Virus record (IMG/VR): IMGVR_UViG_3300043466_001161
Coordinates: 1 to 36,323 of that record
Strand: one strand, 5' to 3'
Origin: a virus
Length of the DNA: 36,323 bases
Position numbers and translations under genes: made by a program. The notes under the pieces were generated by a model. The model was not told the origin of the DNA. It saw nothing but the letters and a program-made list of their open reading frames with translations, and made no database searches. The stretch's first letter is position 1; the number at the start of each line of letters is the position of its first letter. Positions 1 to 36,323 of the stretch are shown in pieces.

Positions 1-25
1 GCGCCCACTGCTAAGGATTAGAAAC

Positions 26-262
26 CTATTCATCGAGCAGCCCTTCAGTTATATCTATAAACCTATCGTACAAATCGGCAATCTTATCACTTACTTCTTC
101 AACGTGTTCACCGTACTTGTATTCTCTGCGCATCAATTCCATGATGTCTTTAAGCGCATCCTTATATCGGGCAGCGTTAAGGGTGTAGTTGTATTCTACT
201 TGTTCTTCAGGTAGATTAAACGTTAGTGATGCTTTCATTTTCTGCTTTGTTTGGTAGTCCAT
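26..262 (-). CDS. Hypothetical 78-aa protein, last gene of the early operon
   Basis: I do not recognise this family. The protein is hydrophilic and probably helical, with a charged middle and an acidic C-terminal half (…DLYDRFIDITEGLLDE). No membrane segment or metal motif is visible. It is the most distal gene of the leftward operon and overlaps the gene upstream by 47 bases. Its stop at 26-28 faces the end of the late operon (33715 in the wrapped genome) with only about 26 bases between. The second copy at 33742-33978 differs at two residues (S to T and A to S) while carrying several silent changes, which supports real coding. Confidence 0.8.
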   Translation of the reverse strand: MDYQTKQKMKASLTFNLPEEQVEYNYTLNAARYKDALKDIMELMRREYKYGEHVEEVSDKIADLYDRFIDITEGLLDE

Positions 263-440
263 TTTTACAATCGGTGTATCCTTCAGTATAGGAATTCAGG
301 ATGTTTTCTAATTCCCATGTTTGGGCTTTCATCATAAACGAATCAAGTTCAATCCATGATATGTTTACAGATGGTCCTTGAAACCTTTTGCGCAATGCTT
401 TGCTTAGTCTACGCATTGCCGTTTCTTTTTTATCGCTCAT
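216..440 (-). CDS. Hypothetical basic 74-aa protein
   Basis: Unrecognised small protein. The N-terminal third is strongly basic (KKETAMRRLSKALRKRFQG), followed by a more neutral, Trp-containing helical segment. The basic stretch could contact nucleic acid, but that is inference. Its ATG at 438-440 overlaps the stop of the upstream 51-aa gene as ATGA, and its 3' end overlaps the next gene by 47 bases in another frame. The second copy at 33932-34156 keeps the frame with three conservative or minor residue changes. Confidence 0.75.
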   Translation of the reverse strand: MSDKKETAMRRLSKALRKRFQGPSVNISWIELDSFMMKAQTWELENILNSYTEGYTDCKNGLPNKAENESITNV

Positions 441-592
441 AGATATTTTATTTCTTTGGTTAGTGTATACAGTTCTTTATTCACTGATTTGATTTTGTGG
501 TGCAGGTTGTCTTTTACGTAGCGTGTTTTAGCTGTGACAAATATCTGCAGCAGGTTAGTTCGCTCTGCTTTCAGCTCGTCTATTGAGCGCAT
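437..592 (-). CDS. Hypothetical 51-aa helical protein
   Basis: A short frame starting MRSIDELKAERTNLLQIF and ending KEIKYL. It is rich in Lys, Glu and Leu and looks like one long coiled-coil-prone helix; no function can be assigned. Support for coding comes from context: its stop overlaps the next start as ATGA at 437-440, and the second copy (34153-34308) keeps it open with conservative changes only (A to V, I to M, V to I). Its start lies 38 bases inside the end of the upstream 97-aa gene, so the two overlap in different frames. Confidence 0.7.
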   Translation of the reverse strand: MRSIDELKAERTNLLQIFVTAKTRYVKDNLHHKIKSVNKELYTLTKEIKYL

Positions 593-848
593 TTTCTTTG
601 CTCCCATTCATTTTTAGTATTTCGTTTTTGACATGGTGGTAGTATGCTTTGACTGAATAGAATTCACCGGTGCCATCAAAGTCTTGCATGATGTCGCTGG
701 GTGCGTTTGTCAATGCTTCATCTACGCAATACAGCGCAGCGTTAATGGCACGCATGTGCATGAGTGCTAAATCTCCATGTTGATCACCAGCTTCGACTAT
801 ATCAAAATAGTTCGAGTACAGTTGCCATGCTTTATCCTTTGCTTTCAT
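555..848 (-). CDS. Hypothetical 97-aa protein
   Basis: Unrecognised. It starts MKAKDKAWQLYSNYF and contains a His/Tyr-rich patch (KAYYHHVKNEILK) near residues 68-80. No signal peptide or membrane segment is seen. The second copy at 34271-34564 differs at one residue near the C-terminus (A to T), so it is under clear protein-level constraint. Upstream context differs between copies: here the gene overlaps the end of the methyltransferase by 17 bases; in the right copy it sits behind a small gene with a strong GGAGGTGAT ribosome-binding site and an ATGA overlap. Confidence 0.8.
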   Translation of the reverse strand: MKAKDKAWQLYSNYFDIVEAGDQHGDLALMHMRAINAALYCVDEALTNAPSDIMQDFDGTGEFYSVKAYYHHVKNEILKMNGSKENALNRRAESRAN

Positions 849-1563
849 ATTGTTCTATTGCTTTAAAGATTTGATATACTACTTGTGGCACAATAGCATT
901 GCCATATGCTTTTATTGATTCGTTGCGCCATTTTGAAAAGGTAATTCCGTCCAGTTCGGTGGGAAGCCCATCATCTCCGCTACAAACCGGGGATTGAGTT
1001 GTGTGCCCGCTCCAAGTACTTCTTCTAAATTTCCCTTTCCTCTGTTTATAGCCATACCTTTTGCTGCTGAAACACGTGGCGTGGGCAACAAACCAAACGC
1101 GCTCTCGTTGGTGTGGCGCATTGACCGCGCTCGCAGGTATAATAAAGGGCGCGACTTGATACCCAAGATTTTCCAAGTCAGTACACACTTCGTTGAATAC
1201 CAATCCTCCATTCCAATTAGTAATGCCGCGAACGTTTTCGCCCACAACGTAACTCGGGGCAATCTCTCGTATTGCTCTAAGCATTTCAGGCCATAGATGG
1301 CGTTCATCTTCTTTGCCAAGTCGTTTTCCTGCGGCTGAATATGGTTGGCAAGGGAATCCACCGGTAAGAATATCAATTTGGTTTGCATATTTTGTAAAGT
1401 CGCTTTTGGTTATATCCGTGAATAGTTCTGCATCAGGCCAATAGTAATTTAGTACACGCTGTCCAAACTCATTCCATTCGCAATGAAACTTATTTTCCCA
1501 ACCCATCCATTCGGCTGCTAAATCAAATCCACCAATGCCACTGAATAATGATCCATGTGTCAT
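832..1563 (-). CDS. DNA (cytosine-5-)-methyltransferase
   Basis: Transfers a methyl group from S-adenosylmethionine to C5 of cytosine in DNA. Motif I is FSGIGGFDLA (residues 7-16); motif IV is GGFPCQPYS with catalytic Cys72; motif VI is ENVRG (109-113); motif VIII is QRERVWF (152-158); the C-terminal motif X-like segment is AYGNAIVPQVVYQIF. At 243 residues it is short for the family, and the target-recognition stretch between motif VIII and the C-terminal motifs (about 163-205) is very small. The start overlaps the exonuclease stop as ATGA. It may protect phage DNA from host restriction (inference). The right copy of this locus lacks the gene. A second long frame (912-1388) lies inside it. 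Confidence 0.95.
   Translation of the reverse strand: MTHGSLFSGIGGFDLAAEWMGWENKFHCEWNEFGQRVLNYYWPDAELFTDITKSDFTKYANQIDILTGGFPCQPYSAAGKRLGKEDERHLWPEMLRAIREIAPSYVVGENVRGITNWNGGLVFNEVCTDLENLGYQVAPFIIPASAVNAPHQRERVWFVAHATCFSSKRYGYKQRKGKFRRSTWSGHTTQSPVCSGDDGLPTELDGITFSKWRNESIKAYGNAIVPQVVYQIFKAIEQYESKG
912..1388 (-). CDS. Overlapping 158-aa frame nested in the methyltransferase gene
   Basis: This frame starts with ATG and lies entirely within the methyltransferase gene, same strand, different frame, spanning that protein's residues 59-217. Its product has segments I associate with an independent family found beside phage cytosine methyltransferases: LKCLEQYERL, WAKTFAALLIGMEDWYST, LTWK, GLLPTPR, and a C-terminal LNPRFVAEMMGFPPNWTELP. 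If that recollection is right, the region is dual coding. The alternative is that similar peptides arise because all these methyltransferases share conserved DNA here, making the frame a shadow. I cannot separate these without a search for stand-alone homologues. Confidence 0.45.
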   Translation of the reverse strand: MQTKLIFLPVDSLANHIQPQENDLAKKMNAIYGLKCLEQYERLPRVTLWAKTFAALLIGMEDWYSTKCVLTWKILGIKSRPLLYLRARSMRHTNESAFGLLPTPRVSAAKGMAINRGKGNLEEVLGAGTQLNPRFVAEMMGFPPNWTELPFQNGATNQ

Positions 1564-3074: not shown

Positions 3075-3096
3075 GTTATTATTGATTTTTATTTGT

Positions 3097-3182
3097 AGTC
3101 AGGACAAGATTCGAACTTGTATTGTTGAATTACCCAGCTTCAACTGCATAAGTATAGCGTCTGCCAATTCCGCCACCTGACT
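3097..3182 (-). tRNA. Class II tRNA-like element (Leu-like), anticodon arm degenerate
   Basis: Read on the minus strand, a 7-bp acceptor stem AGTCAGG/CCTGACT encloses a Leu-type D arm (GCGGAATTGGCAGACGC) and a perfect T arm (ACAAG-TTCGAAT-CTTGT), with A at the discriminator position and no encoded CCA. At 86 nt it has class II length, and a strong 6-bp hairpin GTTGAA/TTCAAC sits where a long variable arm is expected. I cannot fold a standard 5-bp anticodon stem with a 7-base loop between the D arm and that hairpin, so no anticodon is assigned. It may be an unusual tRNA, a decaying one, or a tRNA mimic. Confidence 0.6.
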
Positions 3183-17702: not shown

Positions 17703-18992
17703 ATGGCATTAACAATCGTAGATGAACCCTTCAACTGGGTAGTGCGTGGTCAAAAGATTATGCTGATTGCATCGAGCACAGAAACTGCACAGCTGGGCTT
17801 TCGTTATGGCTTGAATATAACTGTTGATGCTAAGACGTACACGTTTTATTTGTCACCTGCTCCTGATAACAACATGTACTTTGACATTTCACCACTTGTC
17901 GATGATTTGCGTAACCAGCAGCAACACTTTGCTACCGATAATACAGTAGACGATTTGAGCAAGTATGCATTGAGTGCAGCTATTACTGAATGGTGGTTGG
18001 TTGGTGGTGTGCTCACAGAGAATGAAGGCAGCGAAGTAACTATGAGTGGGCGCATTGTCATCAATGGTTACTATCAAGTGTTCGATGGCTACAAGCCAAA
18101 CCCTGAAGTGGGTGTTGATGACATCAAGTACGTACTTCAGTTCAGTCTTAACTACGGCATGAGCGACCGAAAGTACGGCACACATTCGTGGTATTTAGCA
18201 CCATCATGGGGAGCAGGAAGCCCGATAACTCAAAACATCATTTGGATTCCTTCATACGAAACGGACTATGGAACGTTAAGCATACCGGGTAATGCCAGCT
18301 ACATGTATAACAACCTTGTAGACAATGTGCGCATTGTGTTGTATAAAGCAAATGGATCAACATTTACCGAAACGCTATCGTTGAATGCATACGATATTGA
18401 AGCTTTGCCTGTTTATCCAGCTAACATGAATGATTGGACTGGTGCATGGTCAATTAAACCAAATGAAAACGACAATCCCGGTTGGCGTTTTTACGAAGTG
18501 TTTGCCCGTACAGTCAACACGCAATCAAGTATAAAGTATCGCTTCTATAATGCAGCTTATTATGGGCAGAAAGATTGTCACAATGATGTGATTCGTTTAG
18601 GATGGGTGAACAGTCGTGGTGGTTGGGACTACTTTAACTTTATCAAGAAGTCCGAAATGAATGATGAGATTGAGCGTAAAAAATACCGAAAGGTGTTGTT
18701 CAATAGCACAAGCAGCGTGTTCAGCAAAGATGATCGTGGACTGTATGAGCGCAGGAACTTAGTGCAGCAAGTCTTGACAGTGACCAGCGACTTCATTCAG
18801 GAAGGTGAATTCTTATTCCTTCGCTCATTGCTTGTGAGCAATCAGGTTGTATGGATAACACAGCGCAACGGTGAGAACATTGCGCTTCCTGTGAACTTAG
18901 ACGATACTACTTATACCGAACGTAAGACACGTGACGGCAAGCTTTACAACCTATCTTTAAAAGTAAGAATGGCAAACGAATACTGGACATAA
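17703..18992 (+). CDS. Putative tail/baseplate protein, 429 aa
   Basis: Starts MALTIVDEPFNWVVRGQKIM; an early strand-rich domain contains YTFYLSPAPDNNMYFDISPL (about residues 47-66), a pattern I link to tail proteins of Bacteroidota phages. Later segments include AAYYGQKDCHNDVIRLGWVN and GGWDYFNFIKKSEMN, and a C-terminal TERKTRDGKLYNLSLKVRMA typical of adhesive beta domains. No enzyme motif is seen. It lies between the closure protein and the 1064-aa tail protein. Confidence 0.7.
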   Translation: MALTIVDEPFNWVVRGQKIMLIASSTETAQLGFRYGLNITVDAKTYTFYLSPAPDNNMYFDISPLVDDLRNQQQHFATDNTVDDLSKYALSAAITEWWLVGGVLTENEGSEVTMSGRIVINGYYQVFDGYKPNPEVGVDDIKYVLQFSLNYGMSDRKYGTHSWYLAPSWGAGSPITQNIIWIPSYETDYGTLSIPGNASYMYNNLVDNVRIVLYKANGSTFTETLSLNAYDIEALPVYPANMNDWTGAWSIKPNENDNPGWRFYEVFARTVNTQSSIKYRFYNAAYYGQKDCHNDVIRLGWVNSRGGWDYFNFIKKSEMNDEIERKKYRKVLFNSTSSVFSKDDRGLYERRNLVQQVLTVTSDFIQEGEFLFLRSLLVSNQVVWITQRNGENIALPVNLDDTTYTERKTRDGKLYNLSLKVRMANEYWT

Positions 18993-18993
18993 C

Positions 18994-21900
18994 ATGAACG
19001 GAGAAGTACAATTAATAGTAAGAATACCCGGTACAGCACCAAGTGGTATAGTGACAGCTACCGAATCAGGTGTACTAGATGTAACTGTAAACCCTCAAGT
19101 TGCCTTCAGTTATCCAAATGACATGAGCTCATATGTTGGCGGATACGTACAAATAGAAAGTTTAGTGTATGGTGATTTGGGTACGTACTTTATTCAAAGT
19201 GTTGCATTAGATAATCCAGCATATGCATATATAAGTCCCACTAACACACAAATCTTTAGTGATGTTCCTTTCAACTTTGCGATAGATAATTATGACTTAC
19301 CTAATTTTAATTACATGGAGGCAGTGCCTTCGTCAACAGAATACTATTTAGATTTATTCGAAAACGAAAGCATATCGCAGAACTGGAAGTTTCAAGATTT
19401 ATCCAACTTTACAGCGCAAGGTGCGTTTAGTCGTGAGTTTAGAATACCGATGTCCGATAACAACACCAAAGCTATCGGTCCGTTATTCGATACCAACTCC
19501 GAACAAGGTGCGGAAAACTATTTCTTCTACAAACTACCTGCTGAAATCCGTGTAGATACGCTACCGATTGCAACCGGTTATCTGCGTGTGCGCAAGGTGT
19601 ACAAGCAAATGAATCGCATCAATGAAGTAGAGGTAGCCTTCTATGCTGAAACGCCTGACTTAGTGCGCACCATTGGGGAAAAGAAGCTCAGTGATATTGC
19701 TGCGCTTGCTGATTTGAATGAAGTGGTTAACTATGCCAACGTAACAACGGAAACAGCTGATAGGATTTGGTCGCTTTGTGACAGAGCGCAAAAATGGAGC
19801 AATGATGGATCAGTAGGTTCACGCCCTATATATGATGAAAATAATCCTGTTTATCCTGCAGATTTAACACCGGCAGTTAGTTGGTGGTATCTGCTACGCA
19901 ATATTGTAATTGAAGCAGGCTTTGACCTTGTGGCATCTTCACTTGAGAATATCATTGAAGATTACTACATGCCATTTTGCAACACAGCACAGATTCAAAA
20001 TATTAGTGTATCAAATAGATTCTTCTTCAGCGTTTACAATACGGCAAATCAAGTAGTCGGAGTTAGTAATACAGTATATGCATCAGACGCTGAGATATTT
20101 GATAACAATAATGACTTTGATAATTCCACCTATACGTATACGGTTCCAGTTACAGGACAATATACCTTTCGCGTGTATTTGAAAGTTAATGTAGCGTTGA
20201 GTGCTGCTAACTTTATTTCAAATCTAATCATTAATGGAGTTTATCAATTTGTACAATCAAATATGATTTTTCCAAATCCAGATGGTAATACAATAGAATT
20301 TTTAGTTACTCGCACATTAAGTGTTGGAGATACTGTGCAATATGATGTTAGATCACAGGGTTTGCCATTTAATTCTACGATATTGGCCAGTACCGGTGCA
20401 AATGACGAAAGCAGGTTTGAACTTGTAAGTGCAAATCTATTCTATGGCGAAACTATAAACTATGCAGTTAATGCGCCCGATATGCGACAGATTGATTTTG
20501 TCAATGACGTAATCAAGATGCATAACTGCGCTATTGTGCCAAGTCGAACCGTACCGAATCGCATTGCAATCGTGCCACAAAACAACTATTTAGGCACAGG
20601 CGATGTAGTAGACTGGACAAGCAAGCTTGATGTATCAAAAGATGTTGTAATAAGTAGTACAGTTGATATTCAAAAAGCAACGTTTCAATTTACCTACACT
20701 GCAGGTGAAGACGCATACAGCAAATTGTATAAAGATAACAATCGTGTCTACGGTGATTTTAAAGCTGAAGGCTATACTATCAATCCATCAACTGCGCCAA
20801 GTGACTTTGCAATAGGCGAACAAAAGGTTACACTTGTAACACGCAGCACACCAGCTGCACTTGTACCGAATACAGGTACACCAATTGCATGTTTCTATAA
20901 TGAGCAGCTTGAGTTTAACGCACCCGGTCCACGTGCTTTGTTTTATGCTGGCATTGCAAATATAAATTTATATAATGATGTAAGTGGTAATGCATCCTCA
21001 GCGACATTAGTGCCAATACTAAATCATTACAGTGATGCATACCCAAATTTCGACGATTTCGATTTGAATTGGGCACCCGAAGTGCCTCCCCATGTTGTTA
21101 CGGTTACTACAAATCCATACAACAATTTATTCAACACGTATTGGCGCAATTACATGAATGAGCTTTACTCGCCTGAGGGTAGAATAATGGAAGCATTCTT
21201 TGCGCTTGATTTAAAGGATATACTTACGTTCAGCTTTGCAGATAAAATTTGGATACAAGATAGCTATTGGCGCATCCTTGAAATTAGCGATTATAAAGTA
21301 GGATTGCAGGAAAGCACAAAGGTTAAGCTTATTAAATTCTTAGATCAAATTAATGACTGCGCATCTACACCTGTAGGTGTTACCACCAATGGCGAAGTTG
21401 AATTCGAAACCGGAGGTGAATCAGTAGAGCCGACTGAAGATTGCTGTTCACGTTACGGCTACTTTTGGGATGAAGTTGATGGTGTATGCTGGGCATTTAA
21501 TAACGGTGGTCAGTTTCGAAATTCAATAGTAGCCAATCAAAGTGATGTGTCTACTAATCCTGAGTTGCAATCCTTGAATGGCATTCTATTCTCAGTTTTA
21601 AATGGTGAAAAAATCGCTATTGAACAGAGTAATTCAAACATGCTTGCAGTCGGTACTAACTTAGAATTGACAAAAGATGTAGGAGGTAGCAACATGCTTG
21701 GCAAAAACGTAACAACCAATCTACCCGGATTGCACGTAGGCGGTGGATATCGCAATGGTTTAAGCACTGCACCTTATTATGGATGGGCGCAGTTTGGATT
21801 CTTCGTACTTCAAAAACAATTTTCACCTAGTGCCTCAGGCGATGTATTCAATTTCGATATAGAAGGAGTACCGGGTGAATACATAGATATTGAAGATGAT

Positions 21901-22188
21901 ACTATTTGGAGCTGCACATTAAATTTAAATATTCGCGATGCTGTAGGTGTAAACGAAACATCGCTACATCACTTTACACTTGAAAAAACAGGAGGTTCGG
22001 CATCTGCCAGTGCTGTTAGTACATTGAATACGATAGGAGCAATCGGTTCATATGTCTTCACTTTAGGCATAGACACAACTACTAACACAGCAGAGCACAG
22101 AATTAACCTAACAATTACAGGTGGAACGTATCCAGCTACGTTTGTAGCTGGTGCTACTTTACAATACCAACAATTAAAATTCGCATAA
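18994..22188 (+). CDS. Large tail protein with receptor-binding-like C-terminus
   Basis: At 1064 aa the second longest product in the tail block. The N-terminal third contains LDLFENESISQNWKFQDLSN and FTAQGAFSREFRIPMSDNN, a signature of large Bacteroidota phage tail proteins. The middle is beta-rich. A Cys motif DCCSRYGYFWDEVDGVCWAF starts the C-terminal ~220 residues, a separate beta-sandwich-like part that could bind a host receptor or oligomerise. Role in the tail tip is inferred. Its stop overlaps the next start as TAATG. Confidence 0.75.
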   Translation: MNGEVQLIVRIPGTAPSGIVTATESGVLDVTVNPQVAFSYPNDMSSYVGGYVQIESLVYGDLGTYFIQSVALDNPAYAYISPTNTQIFSDVPFNFAIDNYDLPNFNYMEAVPSSTEYYLDLFENESISQNWKFQDLSNFTAQGAFSREFRIPMSDNNTKAIGPLFDTNSEQGAENYFFYKLPAEIRVDTLPIATGYLRVRKVYKQMNRINEVEVAFYAETPDLVRTIGEKKLSDIAALADLNEVVNYANVTTETADRIWSLCDRAQKWSNDGSVGSRPIYDENNPVYPADLTPAVSWWYLLRNIVIEAGFDLVASSLENIIEDYYMPFCNTAQIQNISVSNRFFFSVYNTANQVVGVSNTVYASDAEIFDNNNDFDNSTYTYTVPVTGQYTFRVYLKVNVALSAANFISNLIINGVYQFVQSNMIFPNPDGNTIEFLVTRTLSVGDTVQYDVRSQGLPFNSTILASTGANDESRFELVSANLFYGETINYAVNAPDMRQIDFVNDVIKMHNCAIVPSRTVPNRIAIVPQNNYLGTGDVVDWTSKLDVSKDVVISSTVDIQKATFQFTYTAGEDAYSKLYKDNNRVYGDFKAEGYTINPSTAPSDFAIGEQKVTLVTRSTPAALVPNTGTPIACFYNEQLEFNAPGPRALFYAGIANINLYNDVSGNASSATLVPILNHYSDAYPNFDDFDLNWAPEVPPHVVTVTTNPYNNLFNTYWRNYMNELYSPEGRIMEAFFALDLKDILTFSFADKIWIQDSYWRILEISDYKVGLQESTKVKLIKFLDQINDCASTPVGVTTNGEVEFETGGESVEPTEDCCSRYGYFWDEVDGVCWAFNNGGQFRNSIVANQSDVSTNPELQSLNGILFSVLNGEKIAIEQSNSNMLAVGTNLELTKDVGGSNMLGKNVTTNLPGLHVGGGYRNGLSTAPYYGWAQFGFFVLQKQFSPSASGDVFNFDIEGVPGEYIDIEDDTIWSCTLNLNIRDAVGVNETSLHHFTLEKTGGSASASAVSTLNTIGAIGSYVFTLGIDTTTNTAEHRINLTITGGTYPATFVAGATLQYQQLKFA

Positions 22189-22361: not shown

Positions 22362-24304
22362 TGGCTGAACCTATTGTAAGGACATTTGAAATTGACACAT
22401 CGAAAAGTGAGCAGAACCTAAAAAGCTTAGGTAGTGCTTTTGATAGCGCAGATAACGCTGGCAAATCTCTGAAGGCACAGTTGCGTGAATTACAGGCGCA
22501 ATTGGCTAACACAGATCCGCAGACTCAAAAGTATCGCGAGTTATCGCAGGCAGCAGGTGAACTAAAGGATAAGATTCAAGATGCAGCACAGGCAGTAGGT
22601 ACACAGGCAGGTGGAGCATTTGAAAAGGTTAGTGGTTCGCTTGGTCTTGTGACATCACGTATTGCATCACTTGACTTCGAAGGTGCAGCTGAAGGTGCGA
22701 AGTTACTTGCACAGAATATCACAGAAATTAAGCCGGGTGATATTGCAAAAGGTGTACAAGGAATAGGTAGTGCATTTGCATCCATTGGTAAAGCCTTACT
22801 GACTAATCCTATCTTTTTAATTGGTGCATCGATTGCAGCTGCTGTAGTATATGCTGAAGAATTACTTGCACTTGTTGATGGGGTAACTGATGCAGACCAA
22901 GAACTTTTAGATGTACAGAAGGAACGTGCAGCGGTAGCAAAAGAGAACTTCGATGCTATTTCGGCAACAGAAGAAACGTTAAAGCGTCAAGGCTTAACTG
23001 AAAAACAAATAACTGATTTAAAATTACAAGCATTAAACACTGCCATACTTGAACAGCAAGTAGTGCTTCAAACTAATAAAGAGCAAGCGGCAGCACAAAT
23101 AGCAGCAGCGGAACGTAATGCGAACTATCTAAAAACATTTTTAGATTTTATTACTTTACCTGCACGTGCACTTACAGAGATATTTGAAAATGCTGTAAAT
23201 GGTGCAATCAGTCTGCTCAACACACTGGGTGCGGACATTGGTAAAATAGAATTGTCTGATTCATTTGATACATTAAATTCTTTCATAACAAAGAGCATTT
23301 TTGATCCTGAAGAAGAACGCAAAAATCAGGAGCAAATAATTAAGGATAGTGAAAAAGCATTAACTACACTAATCAACCAGCGCGATGGTATCCTAAATGC
23401 CCAAGATGCAAAAGATAAGGCAAGACAAAAAGAATCGACTAAAACAGTCACTAATGAAGAAAAGGCAAAAACTGATGTTATAATTGATGAACTTAAAAAA
23501 CGCGAACAAGCATATCAAACATACTATGATAAACTTGCAGCTTTACAAGATTCTCAGTTTGAAGCTACGCTAACAGATCAAGAAAAGGAAGGGCTTGCAA
23601 TTACAAAAAAATACGAAGATTTGTTTGCAGCAGCAGATGCAGCAGGAATATCTACTAATGAGTTGCAAAAGCAGTTGGCAGATGAATTATTCGCATTGCA
23701 ACAAAAAGGTGTAGCAGATACTGAAGCAGCTGTTACTGAATCCACCACCAGCACATTAGAACAAATACAGCAAGGTTTAGAATGGGCTGAAAAAGGATTG
23801 AATGCTGTAAGTGCATTAAGTGATGCTGTGTTTGCTAACCGAATGAGTAAGGTAAAGAAGGGAAGTAAAGAAGAAGAAGCATTAGCAAGGAAACAATTTA
23901 AGTTTCAAAAAGCATTGCAGTTAGGCGCGGCTACTATAGATGCAGCCAAAGCAGTTACAGCCTCGCTTGCATCAGCACCGGTTGCCATTGGTCCGATACC
24001 TAACCCTGCTGGTATTGCTTCACTTGCGTTAGCTGTTACTACAGGCGCAGCATCGATTGCTAAAATTGCAGCAACAAAGTTTGAAGGTGGTGGAGGTGGT
24101 TCACAGGATGTAAGTGTGCCTTCCTTTGGTGGAGGAGGTGGTGCTGATACAGGCGCACAGCCAGCAGGGTTCAATCCATTTGCTGCGCAGTTCGTAGCGA
24201 ATCGCCCTGATCAATACTTACCACGTGCATATGTGTTGGCAGGTGATGTATCAAGTCAGCAAGAAGTACGCGAGAACGTAGAAGACTTAGCACGTATAGG
24301 ATAA
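22361..24304 (+). CDS. Tape measure protein
   Basis: A 647-aa protein dominated by alpha-helical, Ala/Gln-rich coiled coil (residues ~10-90 and ~330-480). It has a hydrophobic stretch near 140-170 (LLTNPIFLIGASIAAAVVYA) and a second near 520-580, followed by Gly-rich loops (EGGGGGSQ, GGGGGADTG). This profile is that of a tape measure, which sets tail length; at about 1.5 angstrom per residue it would give a tail near 95-100 nm, a siphovirus. It lies well away from the chaperone gene, which is normally next door. Confidence 0.8.
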   Translation: MAEPIVRTFEIDTSKSEQNLKSLGSAFDSADNAGKSLKAQLRELQAQLANTDPQTQKYRELSQAAGELKDKIQDAAQAVGTQAGGAFEKVSGSLGLVTSRIASLDFEGAAEGAKLLAQNITEIKPGDIAKGVQGIGSAFASIGKALLTNPIFLIGASIAAAVVYAEELLALVDGVTDADQELLDVQKERAAVAKENFDAISATEETLKRQGLTEKQITDLKLQALNTAILEQQVVLQTNKEQAAAQIAAAERNANYLKTFLDFITLPARALTEIFENAVNGAISLLNTLGADIGKIELSDSFDTLNSFITKSIFDPEEERKNQEQIIKDSEKALTTLINQRDGILNAQDAKDKARQKESTKTVTNEEKAKTDVIIDELKKREQAYQTYYDKLAALQDSQFEATLTDQEKEGLAITKKYEDLFAAADAAGISTNELQKQLADELFALQQKGVADTEAAVTESTTSTLEQIQQGLEWAEKGLNAVSALSDAVFANRMSKVKKGSKEEEALARKQFKFQKALQLGAATIDAAKAVTASLASAPVAIGPIPNPAGIASLALAVTTGAASIAKIAATKFEGGGGGSQDVSVPSFGGGGGADTGAQPAGFNPFAAQFVANRPDQYLPRAYVLAGDVSSQQEVRENVEDLARIG

Positions 24305-33715: not shown

Positions 33716-33741
33716 TGCGCCCACTGCTAAGGATTAGAAAC

Positions 33742-33978
33742 CTATTCATCGAGCAGCCCTTCAGTTATATCTATAAACCTATCGTATAAATCTGCAATCT
33801 TATCACTTACTTCTTCAACGTGTTCACCGTACTTGTATTCTCTGCGCATCAATTCCATGATGTCTTTAAGCGCATCCTTATACCGGGAAGCGTTAAGCGT
33901 GTAGTTGTATTCTACTTGTTCTTCGGGTAGATTAAACGTTAGTGTTGCTTTCATTTTCTGCTTTGTTTGGTAGTCCAT
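33742..33978 (-). CDS. Hypothetical 78-aa protein (second copy)
   Basis: Counterpart of the gene at 26-262, differing at two residues (S12 to T in KASLTF, and A to S in NAARYK), with other substitutions silent. The 47-base overlap with the upstream gene is also preserved. Confidence 0.8.
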   Translation of the reverse strand: MDYQTKQKMKATLTFNLPEEQVEYNYTLNASRYKDALKDIMELMRREYKYGEHVEEVSDKIADLYDRFIDITEGLLDE

Positions 33979-34156
33979 TTTTACAATCGGTGTATCCTTC
34001 AGTATATGAATTAAGTATGTTTTCCAATTCCCATGTTTGGGCTTTCATCATAAAGGCATCCAGTTCAATCCATGATATGTTTACGGATGGACCTTGAAAT
34101 CTTTTGCGCAAGGCTTTACTAAGTCTACGCATTGCCGTTTCTTTTTTTTCGCTCAT
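33932..34156 (-). CDS. Hypothetical basic 74-aa protein (second copy)
   Basis: Counterpart of 216-440 with D to E at residue 3, S to A in the WIELD(S/A)FMM segment, and I to N near the C-terminus. The ATGA start overlap is preserved. Confidence 0.75.
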   Translation of the reverse strand: MSEKKETAMRRLSKALRKRFQGPSVNISWIELDAFMMKAQTWELENILNSYTEGYTDCKNGLPNKAENESNTNV

Positions 34157-34308
34157 AGATATTTTATTTCTTTGGTTAGTGTATACAGTTCTTTATTCAC
34201 TGATTTGATTTTGTGGTGCAGGTTGTCTTTTATGTATCGCGTCTTAGCTGTGACAAACATCTGCAAAAGGTTAGTTCGTTCTACTTTCAGCTCGTCGATT
34301 GAGCGCAT
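34153..34308 (-). CDS. Hypothetical 51-aa helical protein (second copy)
   Basis: Counterpart of 437-592. All differences are conservative (A to V, I to M, V to I), and the frame is intact, which is the main evidence that this short gene is real. Confidence 0.7.
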   Translation of the reverse strand: MRSIDELKVERTNLLQMFVTAKTRYIKDNLHHKIKSVNKELYTLTKEIKYL

Positions 34309-34564
34309 TTTCTTTGCTGCCATTCATTTTTAATATTTCGTTTTTGACATGGTGGTAGTATGCTTTGACTGAATAGAATTCACCGGTGCCATCGAAGTCT
34401 TGCATGATGTCGCTAGGTGCGTTTGTCAATGCTTCATCTACGCAATACAGCGCAGCGTTAATGGCACGCATGTGCATCAATGCCAAATCGCCATGTTGAT
34501 CACCAGCTTCGACTATATCAAAATAGTTCGAGTACAGTTGCCATGCTTTGTCTTTTGCTTTCAT
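34271..34564 (-). CDS. Hypothetical 97-aa protein (second copy)
   Basis: Counterpart of 555-848 with one residue change. Here codon 5 is GAC, where the left copy has GAT. In the left copy that T begins the TAA that stops the methyltransferase; the silent change would remove it. A GGAGGTGAT ribosome-binding site lies just ahead of the ATG. Confidence 0.8.
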   Translation of the reverse strand: MKAKDKAWQLYSNYFDIVEAGDQHGDLALMHMRAINAALYCVDEALTNAPSDIMQDFDGTGEFYSVKAYYHHVKNEILKMNGSKENALNRRAESRTN

Positions 34565-34722
34565 TTATCACCTCCCTTGTATGCTTCGTTATCGAGAAAA
34601 TGACACATGTGATTTGCTAATTCCATGACATCGTAATAATTCATGCTGCCTGATGCACATTGCGCTTTCACTATTTCGGTTGCCATTTGTAATGCCAGCT
34701 GTCTGTTATTTATGTCGCTCAT
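34561..34722 (-). CDS. Hypothetical 53-aa protein, only in the right copy
   Basis: Starts MSDINNRQLALQMATEIVKA, has QCASGSMNYYDVMELANHMC, and ends YKGGDK. It replaces part of the methyltransferase cassette. Both ends are ATGA overlaps (34561-34564 and 34719-34722). Its tail GGDK is the reading of the next gene's ribosome-binding site, as for GGEK and RGDK in the genes at 5674 and 5495. Small phage proteins with a start like 'RQLALQMATEIVKA' are familiar, but have no known function. Confidence 0.72.
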   Translation of the reverse strand: MSDINNRQLALQMATEIVKAQCASGSMNYYDVMELANHMCHFLDNEAYKGGDK

Positions 34723-34967
34723 TGTTCTGTAAAATTTGGAAGGGTTTTTCCTGTTGAATAAAAATATAATTGGTTCAATTCATCCATGTACTTGACATAT
34801 TTATACATTGAAAACAATGTACCGCCTTCTTGTTTATGCCTAAGAACAGCTCTCGGAGTCCATCCAAACTCAAATCCGATGTTATCATACCAATATACTC
34901 TATCGGTTTCTGATGCTCTAAATCCGTAATCGAGCAGTGTTGCTTTATTGATTGGTATCCTGCTCAT
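34719..34967 (-). CDS. Hypothetical 82-aa protein, only in the right copy
   Basis: Starts MSRIPINKATLLDYGFRASE, then WYDNIGFEFGW, and ends with KYMDELNQLYFYSTGKTLP. The 'GF…..WY……(V/M)(H/D)ELQNLYF.LTG..L' ending is a widespread signature of small phage proteins of unknown function. The start overlaps the exonuclease stop as ATGA, exactly where the methyltransferase starts in the left copy. Confidence 0.78.
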   Translation of the reverse strand: MSRIPINKATLLDYGFRASETDRVYWYDNIGFEFGWTPRAVLRHKQEGGTLFSMYKYVKYMDELNQLYFYSTGKTLPNFTEQ

Positions 34968-35731
34968 ACGTTCAAAGTATTAAGGTATTCACGCCACATA
35001 GGTACACGTTCCTGAAGCTTTGCAATAGCATCGGTATCAAATTCCACAACCTTTTCATGGATGCGTTCAGCGATGGGTATATCAAACGCCCATTCGTCCT
35101 GTGACGTTTCAAGGTTTGCATCCGGGTATTCGCGAAGGAAACGTGGCATGTCGTATATCATGTTGCGTTCAATGCTCTTTGATTTCTTGATGAAGGTAGG
35201 GTCGCCTTGTGGATCAATAAGATTAAGTCTGCGCGATAGTCTGTACTTCTCGTCATTAATCATTTCAATCGGTGCGCTAACTAACACGTAGCAGAACGTG
35301 GCACGTGGTGCTCCTGTTAACCAGCAGTAGGCTTGACCTTGCCAGTAGTAGTCTTTGCTTATGTCGCTGGTCTTTGCATCCATGAAGGTATGAATGTCCC
35401 AACTTGATTTAATATCGGGCACATTGATTACTGCACCTGCTTCATCTTTGATAAGCAAATCGGGCGTGCCTTTGATGAAATCATTAGTGAACATTTCTTC
35501 ATTCTTAAATACGATTTCACCACGATGCCTGCGCCACATATCAATAGCATCATTTTCTACGGCTAAACCTTTTTCAATGTATTTGTTGCTGATTTCTTTG
35601 TACCGGTTGTACTTCTGTTGCACGTAGACTTCGAGCAATGCGCTCTTAGTCGTTTCGGATAAACCTGTTTTGGTTCTTGCATCGGTCATAAGCTTACCAA
35701 GCTGCGATGCTCTAAATAGTGTATTGTTCAT
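34964..35731 (-). CDS. YqaJ-like recombination exonuclease (second copy)
   Basis: Counterpart of 1560-2327. Catalytic segments (KGTPDLL, PDIKSSW, WQGQAYCW) are unchanged. The differences are KKAKS to KKSKS, ETPQD to ETSQD, FDADAIVK to FDTDAIAK, and the last two residues (AL to NV), where the swapped cassette begins. Confidence 0.85.
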   Translation of the reverse strand: MNNTLFRASQLGKLMTDARTKTGLSETTKSALLEVYVQQKYNRYKEISNKYIEKGLAVENDAIDMWRRHRGEIVFKNEEMFTNDFIKGTPDLLIKDEAGAVINVPDIKSSWDIHTFMDAKTSDISKDYYWQGQAYCWLTGAPRATFCYVLVSAPIEMINDEKYRLSRRLNLIDPQGDPTFIKKSKSIERNMIYDMPRFLREYPDANLETSQDEWAFDIPIAERIHEKVVEFDTDAIAKLQERVPMWREYLNTLNV

Positions 35732-35764
35732 GTTGTATTGATTGATGGGGTAAAAATAGCAAAT

Positions 35765-35781
35765 GGTTACAATCTGTAACC
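35765..35781. promoter_or_regulatory. Inverted repeat, second copy of the candidate operator
   Basis: Identical GGTTACA-ATC-TGTAACC dyad to 2362-2378, with identical close flanks, in the same intergenic position. Confidence 0.45.
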
Positions 35782-35802
35782 ACCTGCCATCATTTTTAAC
35801 AA

Positions 35803-36323
35803 CTATTCGGAAATTCCGAACTGTTGCTTTTTATTATTGATTTCGTCACTTACCTCTGCAAGTATTTCAGGGCTGCATGCTTTGAAGATTTTATGCAGCT
35901 GTGTTAAGTCGGTAGCCTGCTGGATTAATTCGCGCACATACGCCACATCCTGTTCGTGCCCACGACCAAGCGCACCTTTCAACTTGAATGGCTTGTATGT
36001 ATCTTTATTGACGCGGTTAACGTCACGCCCGAATACTTTGCCTAATGACAGTGCAGCGTTTTTAAGGCACTCTGCTTTGAGCTTCCCGAATGCAAGGTCC
36101 ATAGCATTCGCTTTTTTATTATCGGGGTTTAATGCCCATCTATTGCGTTCAGTACCGGTTACACCATCGGGCACGCGATCTACCATAATGATAACTGAAG
36201 CTGCGCCCACTCTACGTATTTCGTAACCACTTATCGGATGTATCACTACAAGGTCAATCGATGCCTGTACTTCGTTAGCTAATACAGCCCACTTAAAATT
36301 CTCTGTTCTCCAATGTCCGAAGA
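35803..36323 (-). CDS. Single-strand annealing protein (second copy, cut by window end)
   Basis: Counterpart of 2400-3074. The frame continues without a stop to the right edge of the window, so the N-terminal ~51 residues are missing here. The C-terminus differs from the left copy (DEINNKKQQFGISE against DELNAKKEQYGITE), while the central LKAECLKNAALSLGKVFGR is identical. A GTG-started internal frame from 36246 is not a real start. Confidence 0.75.
   Translation of the reverse strand, partial: FGHWRTENFKWAVLANEVQASIDLVVIHPISGYEIRRVGAASVIIMVDRVPDGVTGTERNRWALNPDNKKANAMDLAFGKLKAECLKNAALSLGKVFGRDVNRVNKDTYKPFKLKGALGRGHEQDVAYVRELIQQATDLTQLHKIFKACSPEILAEVSDEINNKKQQFGISE

Follow-up and report, generated by a model that had tools for sequence, protein, structure and literature searches.

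C5-cytosine DNA methyltransferases (C5-MTases) are normally single-chain enzymes, and multispecific C5-MTases are known from phages. M.EaeI is a two-polypeptide C5-MTase like M.EcoHK31I, for which Lee, Kam and Shaw are said to have found in 1995 that the small reading frame is contained in the large one, out of frame with it, and that both products are needed in vitro. M.EcoHK31I consists of two polypeptides, with motif IX only in the small one and motifs I–VIII and X in the large one, alpha; the literature places its recognition domain in alpha, a placement that is a prediction (PMC3404938). The small subunit of M.AquI holds motifs IX–X and the small polypeptide of M.EcoHK31I motif IX alone, and C5-MTase fragments can complement one another when the split falls between motif VIII and the recognition domain (PMC3404938, PMC5944983). 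In phage methylases, the ShiLan domain is an out-of-frame HNH insertion, a homing endonuclease insert (PMC11855218). A search of the open-licence literature returned no paper that describes as nested the methylase group analyzed here, which is represented by a gene of the 36,323-nucleotide viral sequence IMGVR_UViG_3300043466_001161 (hereafter the window).

Analysis of this locus revealed two overlapping reading frames, alpha and beta. C5-MTase models covered alpha only as far as motif VIII, with matches ending at residue 163: Pfam PF00145 (E 4e-45) aligned to residues 2–163 only (profile positions 2–163 of 324), TIGR00675 aligned over profile positions 3–162 of 329, and M.HhaI, in the PDB alignment, covered residues 5–163 (E 6e-19). 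Motifs I, IV (PCQ), VI (ENV), VIII, and X were all present in alpha, X being assigned by sequence alone. Motif IX and the recognition domain between VIII and X were absent from the alpha chain, and motif IX was found in the +1 frame.

Beta is wholly nested in alpha in this +1 frame, with its own ATG and 158 codons; its first base is the second of alpha codon 59 (tATGca), and it terminates within codon 218 (Table 1). An earlier note on this DNA had described a 158-codon ATG-started frame nested on the same strand of a methyltransferase gene and including the region of the catalytic Cys, ENVRG, and the variable region; the coordinates, the +1 offset, and the sequence bear this out. With the alpha protein fixed and its synonymous codons redrawn, about 6.7 stops were expected in the beta frame, which stayed open in only 0–0.01% of 20,000 redraws, and the +2 frame across the same stretch contained 10 stops. 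The open beta frame is thus far beyond chance.

Table 1. Features of the two-frame methylase gene, in window coordinates
Feature	Position	Strand	Length, basis or remarks
Alpha, C5-MTase large subunit with motifs I–VIII and X	832..1563	-	243 aa; PF00145, TIGR00675, and M.HhaI matches
Beta, predicted nested +1 subunit with recognition module and motif IX	912..1388	-	158 aa; PHROG 1008 match, frame conservation, selection
Beta start codon ATG	1386..1388	-	Bases 2–3 of the alpha Tyr59 codon TAT and base 1 of Ala60
Beta residues 1–98, overprinted on alpha motifs IV–VIII	1095..1388	-	A1/A2 conservation; alpha synonymous change lowered
Beta residues 99–130, single recognition module GLLPTPRVSAAKGMAINRGKGNLEEVLGAGTQ	999..1094	-	Same module type as the second of two in L067, L072, L077, and L088
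Beta residues 131–146, motif IX (LNPRFVAEMMGFPPNW)	951..998	-	Invariant or nearly so among 40–90 beta proteins
Alpha motif X (AYGNAIVPQV), closely following the beta stop	880..909	-	Sequence; motif order in relatives
Alpha catalytic Cys72 of motif IV (GGFPCQP)	1348..1350	-	Sequence; PDB alignment to M.HhaI
Alpha motif VIII (QRERVW)	1093-1110	-	Beta recognition module starts at its end

Among the 80 viral loci nearest to this one, the +1 offset is maintained and beta is nested in nearly all cases, the exception being a truncated one, and in most of them beta starts exactly 175 nt past the alpha start. Among near-clade nested loci, an ATG shortly before motif IV was kept in 149 of 153, with an in-frame stop slightly upstream. 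We then classified 463 loci from viral contigs, phage records, and bacterial genomes by their motifs. The nested +1 layout, with IX in beta and X in alpha, accounted for 389 of the 463, a count that includes loci fetched twice via different queries and corresponds to 299 distinct nested sequences; they belong to phages and prophages whose hosts represent several phyla. Four loci were split in the +1 frame with X beside IX, and 11 had IX in the alpha frame, several of these being broken copies; no locus was counted as nested in +2, the one apparent +2 case, L192, being a degenerate locus. The remainder of the 463 were assigned to no layout. Two further candidates were rejected, namely an apparent in-frame fusion in L168, an artefact of a masked stretch, and L206, which looks degenerate, as were L075 and L346/L412, in which alpha has no motif X and which look like frameshifted or deleted copies.

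No stand-alone beta gene occurred in the loci examined, and the 158-residue product had no stand-alone homologue there. The sole split forms come from Gordonia phage Upyo and from three viral contigs; in these, too, the second frame overlaps alpha, and it includes motif X. In Upyo (L240, genes 54 and 53), alpha ends past motif VIII and the +1 frame contains several LPTP modules, IX, and X; the annotated start of gene 53 lies well downstream of where this frame opens. Stops in close relatives, which the earlier note held would count against a second protein, do occur as a few exceptions (a beta stop at codon 94 in L014 and L015 and a beta frameshift in L075, with alpha open in these loci); otherwise the frame is free of them. 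These interruptions are either inactivated beta genes or sequencing errors.

To compare selection on the two frames, we used 56 pairs with alignable variable regions, treated as independent in the sense that no sequence was used twice. In the alpha-only 5' segment, substitutions at alpha codon positions 1, 2, and 3 had shares of 0.21, 0.08, and 0.71, against 0.56, 0.22, and 0.22 in the variable region, where alpha position 1 is beta position 3. Amino-acid difference in the variable region was 0.144 for beta and 0.283 for alpha. Beta was the better conserved protein in 52 of 55 informative pairs and alpha in 3, with 1 tie (sign test p 1.5e-12, an optimistic value because over half of the pairs came from one locus set, L413–L492, and are not fully independent). 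The window's own group agreed, as in the pair L001/L011 with 20 alpha and 8 beta differences, and in its motif IX stretch changes peaked at alpha position 1 (0.52–0.54).

The reduced synonymous change that the earlier note had proposed to look for in the methyltransferase frame was found: at conserved alpha residues it fell from 0.271 upstream to 0.160 in the catalytic overlap (Fisher p 1e-9) and 0.056 in the variable region. Over the catalytic motifs alpha dominates selection, yet its synonymous change is still lowered. From this frame-wise pattern, with alpha dominant over the catalytic motifs and beta over the variable region, the N-terminal half of beta was probably overprinted on the catalytic domain, and the alpha linker on the recognition domain. 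Frame conservation and selection together support the suggestion that two functional proteins share this DNA.

Beta matched PHROG 1008, "DNA methyltransferase" (E 4e-17), a family matched in 3 of 296 Bacteroidota genomes, and its sequence had no match in Pfam, NCBIfam, or the PDB. AlphaFold models of beta were of low confidence (pLDDT 43 alone, 61 with 90 relatives), and Foldseek found no fold match for the model; half a domain, such as beta alone, may fail to fold by itself. The conserved residues of its N-terminal segment are C36, W63, S65, C68, and W72. In Mycobacterium phage prophiFSQJ01-1 and related viral contigs, a single frame runs from motif VIII through LPTP modules and L(S/N)xRF(A/S)EWMMGWP to motif X. 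Because these actinophage monomers carry VIII, LPTP modules, IX, and X in one frame, we assign the C-terminal end of beta to motif IX and its LPTP modules to the recognition region. VIII-to-X profiles of the beta frame from four nested groups matched the single-chain actinophage monomers with best E values of 1.5e-18, 7e-9, 6e-27 (6.3e-27), and 3e-9, against 0.006 at best for alpha-frame and +2 profiles of the same DNA.

By this comparison, the C-terminal half of beta has its homologue in the part of single-chain methylases that comprises the recognition domain and motif IX, and beta is most likely the methylase's own missing small domain, its DNA-recognition half. The earlier note had linked the nested frame to a very short recognition region; that link was right, in an altered sense, in that the recognition region sits in the other frame. 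Beta proteins near the window contain 1 to 5 LPTP modules, mostly two, and the window's contains one, of a type that is the second of two elsewhere (Table 1); one module type can sit at different places in different beta proteins. By analogy with multispecific phage C5-MTases, the variable sequence and number of modules suggests exchangeable specificities.

Other accounts of the second frame were weighed against these results. Much of beta overlaps conserved catalytic motifs, which alone is enough for second-frame similarity, and tblastn matches of a distant beta protein to 1,321 phage records, only 15 of them spanning at least 80% of the query, were for this reason not counted. A shadow frame with no product, held open by the composition and conservation of alpha, is nevertheless extremely unlikely, since synonymous redraws almost never leave the frame open, beta is conserved and alpha free in the variable region, and the beta frame alone matches independent single-chain enzymes. 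The short recognition region in alpha and the gene's character as an accessory cassette would suit a separate accessory protein (a regulator or an anti-restriction factor, for example) whose frame was overprinted on a methylase complete as a monomer; such a protein is very unlikely given that motif IX is in beta and missing from alpha, that the alpha variable region evolves almost freely, and that beta never stood alone among the loci examined.

Programmed +1 frameshifting past motif VIII, producing a single chain of motifs I–VIII, recognition region, and IX besides alpha, would fit adjacent frames in a +1 relation and the existence of single-chain relatives. We consider it improbable, however, because a median of 124 open beta codons precede motif VIII, the ATG before motif IV is kept in nearly all near relatives, alpha synonymous change is already lowered upstream of any useful shift site, and the fusion product would have no motif X. 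The earlier note had also raised a family of separate genes born as a shadow frame of methyltransferase genes; this found no support, given the lack of stand-alone beta in the loci examined and split forms that overlap alpha and carry X, and the direction is reversed: the C-terminal half of beta corresponds to a recognition domain and motif IX that single-chain methylases ordinarily carry. That note did not consider a third possibility, in which the products of the two frames form a single two-subunit enzyme, as they do in M.EcoHK31I.

The nested frame, the selection on both frames, the division of motifs, and the homology of the beta C-terminal half are computational observations; the reading we favor is that the locus very probably encodes one two-subunit phage C5-MTase with a catalytic alpha and a nested beta for recognition and motif IX. 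Alpha would provide the large catalytic domain with motifs I–VIII and X, SAM, and the catalytic Cys. Beta, presumably translated by internal initiation from its own ATG within the alpha gene, would provide the small domain, namely motif IX and a target-recognition region built from LPTP modules, 1 to 5 in number and one here. Assembled as a heterodimer, the two would restore the usual two-domain architecture. The enzyme probably methylates phage DNA, with beta determining the site, and, as established phage biology makes plausible, may thereby evade host restriction.

In a phylogenetic tree of alpha motifs I–VIII, one branch (SH-aLRT 93) separated all nested from all non-nested forms, and single-chain and split forms were intermixed among actinophages; the rooting is unsure, as the HhaI branch is very long. 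With that uncertainty, the simplest history is a one-frame displacement of the recognition-plus-IX segment of a single-chain gene, motif X staying in alpha, after which the beta N-terminus and the alpha linker would have been overprinted. The direction from single-chain to nested is taken from the normal single-chain state of C5-MTases, not from the tree rooting.

Window positions 1–848 and 1560–2920 repeat positions 33717–34564 and 34964–36323 at 95% and 92% identity. The right-hand copy is without the alpha/beta gene (849–1559) and has about 400 other bases (34565–34963) in its place. Probably a circular genome was closed with sequence from two strain variants, or else this is a diverged repeat, and under either reading the two-frame gene was lost or gained as one unit. 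Elsewhere in the window, two long adjacent genes at 17703–18992 (429 aa) and 18994–22188 (1064 aa) had no PHROG match, and ARAGORN reported a tRNA-His with anticodon atg (3095–3182, minus strand) and a tRNA-Thr inside a long ORF (24090–24189, plus strand), both of which may be false.

Phage Lily gp63 had already been annotated, PHROG 1008 matches beta, and M.EcoHK31I divides its motifs in this way, so the locus belongs to a known kind; the breadth of the nested layout and the evidence for a recognition domain in beta seem to be new. More broadly, we think it likely that these loci represent a large phage-borne C5-methylase group in which a recognition domain of exchangeable LPTP modules was displaced into a nested +1 frame and evolves inside the linker of the catalytic subunit, that this layout arose once or a few times from single-chain genes, that the placement in M.EcoHK31I would need correcting, and that beta goes unrecorded in most database entries. 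Alpha is the only one of the two annotated in many records that we examined, and a large number of phage cytosine methylases now listed as one gene look like half of an enzyme. Alpha cloned from a codon-optimized sequence would have beta destroyed and could yield a dead or unspecific protein. Target specificity would be placed in beta and be swappable by module. The group is a clear example, open to testing, of a protein domain maintained out of frame within the gene of its partner; single-chain, overlapping-split, and nested forms are all at hand for comparison.

Compared with known systems, the locus resembles the ShiLan HNH insertions in that a phage methylase gene has an additional protein in a different frame, but those are not part of the enzyme and no homology is implied. 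Single-chain C5-MTases (M.HhaI and gene 6 of phage prophiFSQJ01-1) contain the same motifs, and the phage monomers also LPTP-type modules and IX, with everything in one frame. Paenibacillus phage Lily gp62/gp63 has the nested layout, gp63 being annotated as "g62 internal gene", DNA methyltransferase, although its sequence is diverged and its record states no subunit role. M.AquI is likewise a two-subunit C5-MTase, naturally split between motifs VIII and IX, but with IX and X in its small subunit, whereas the window's X is in alpha, past the beta stop; Upyo and the three viral contigs (L250, L251, and L253) show an M.AquI-like division, in the +1 frame. M.EcoHK31I (YGGCCR), compared by layout and not by sequence, also has IX in the small and I–VIII and X in the large polypeptide, and its small ORF, too, reportedly lies wholly inside the large one in another frame. 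It differs in that no restriction gene was recognized beside the window's phage locus, and in that its recognition domain is assigned to alpha, whereas selection and homology here point to beta, with 1–5 modules.
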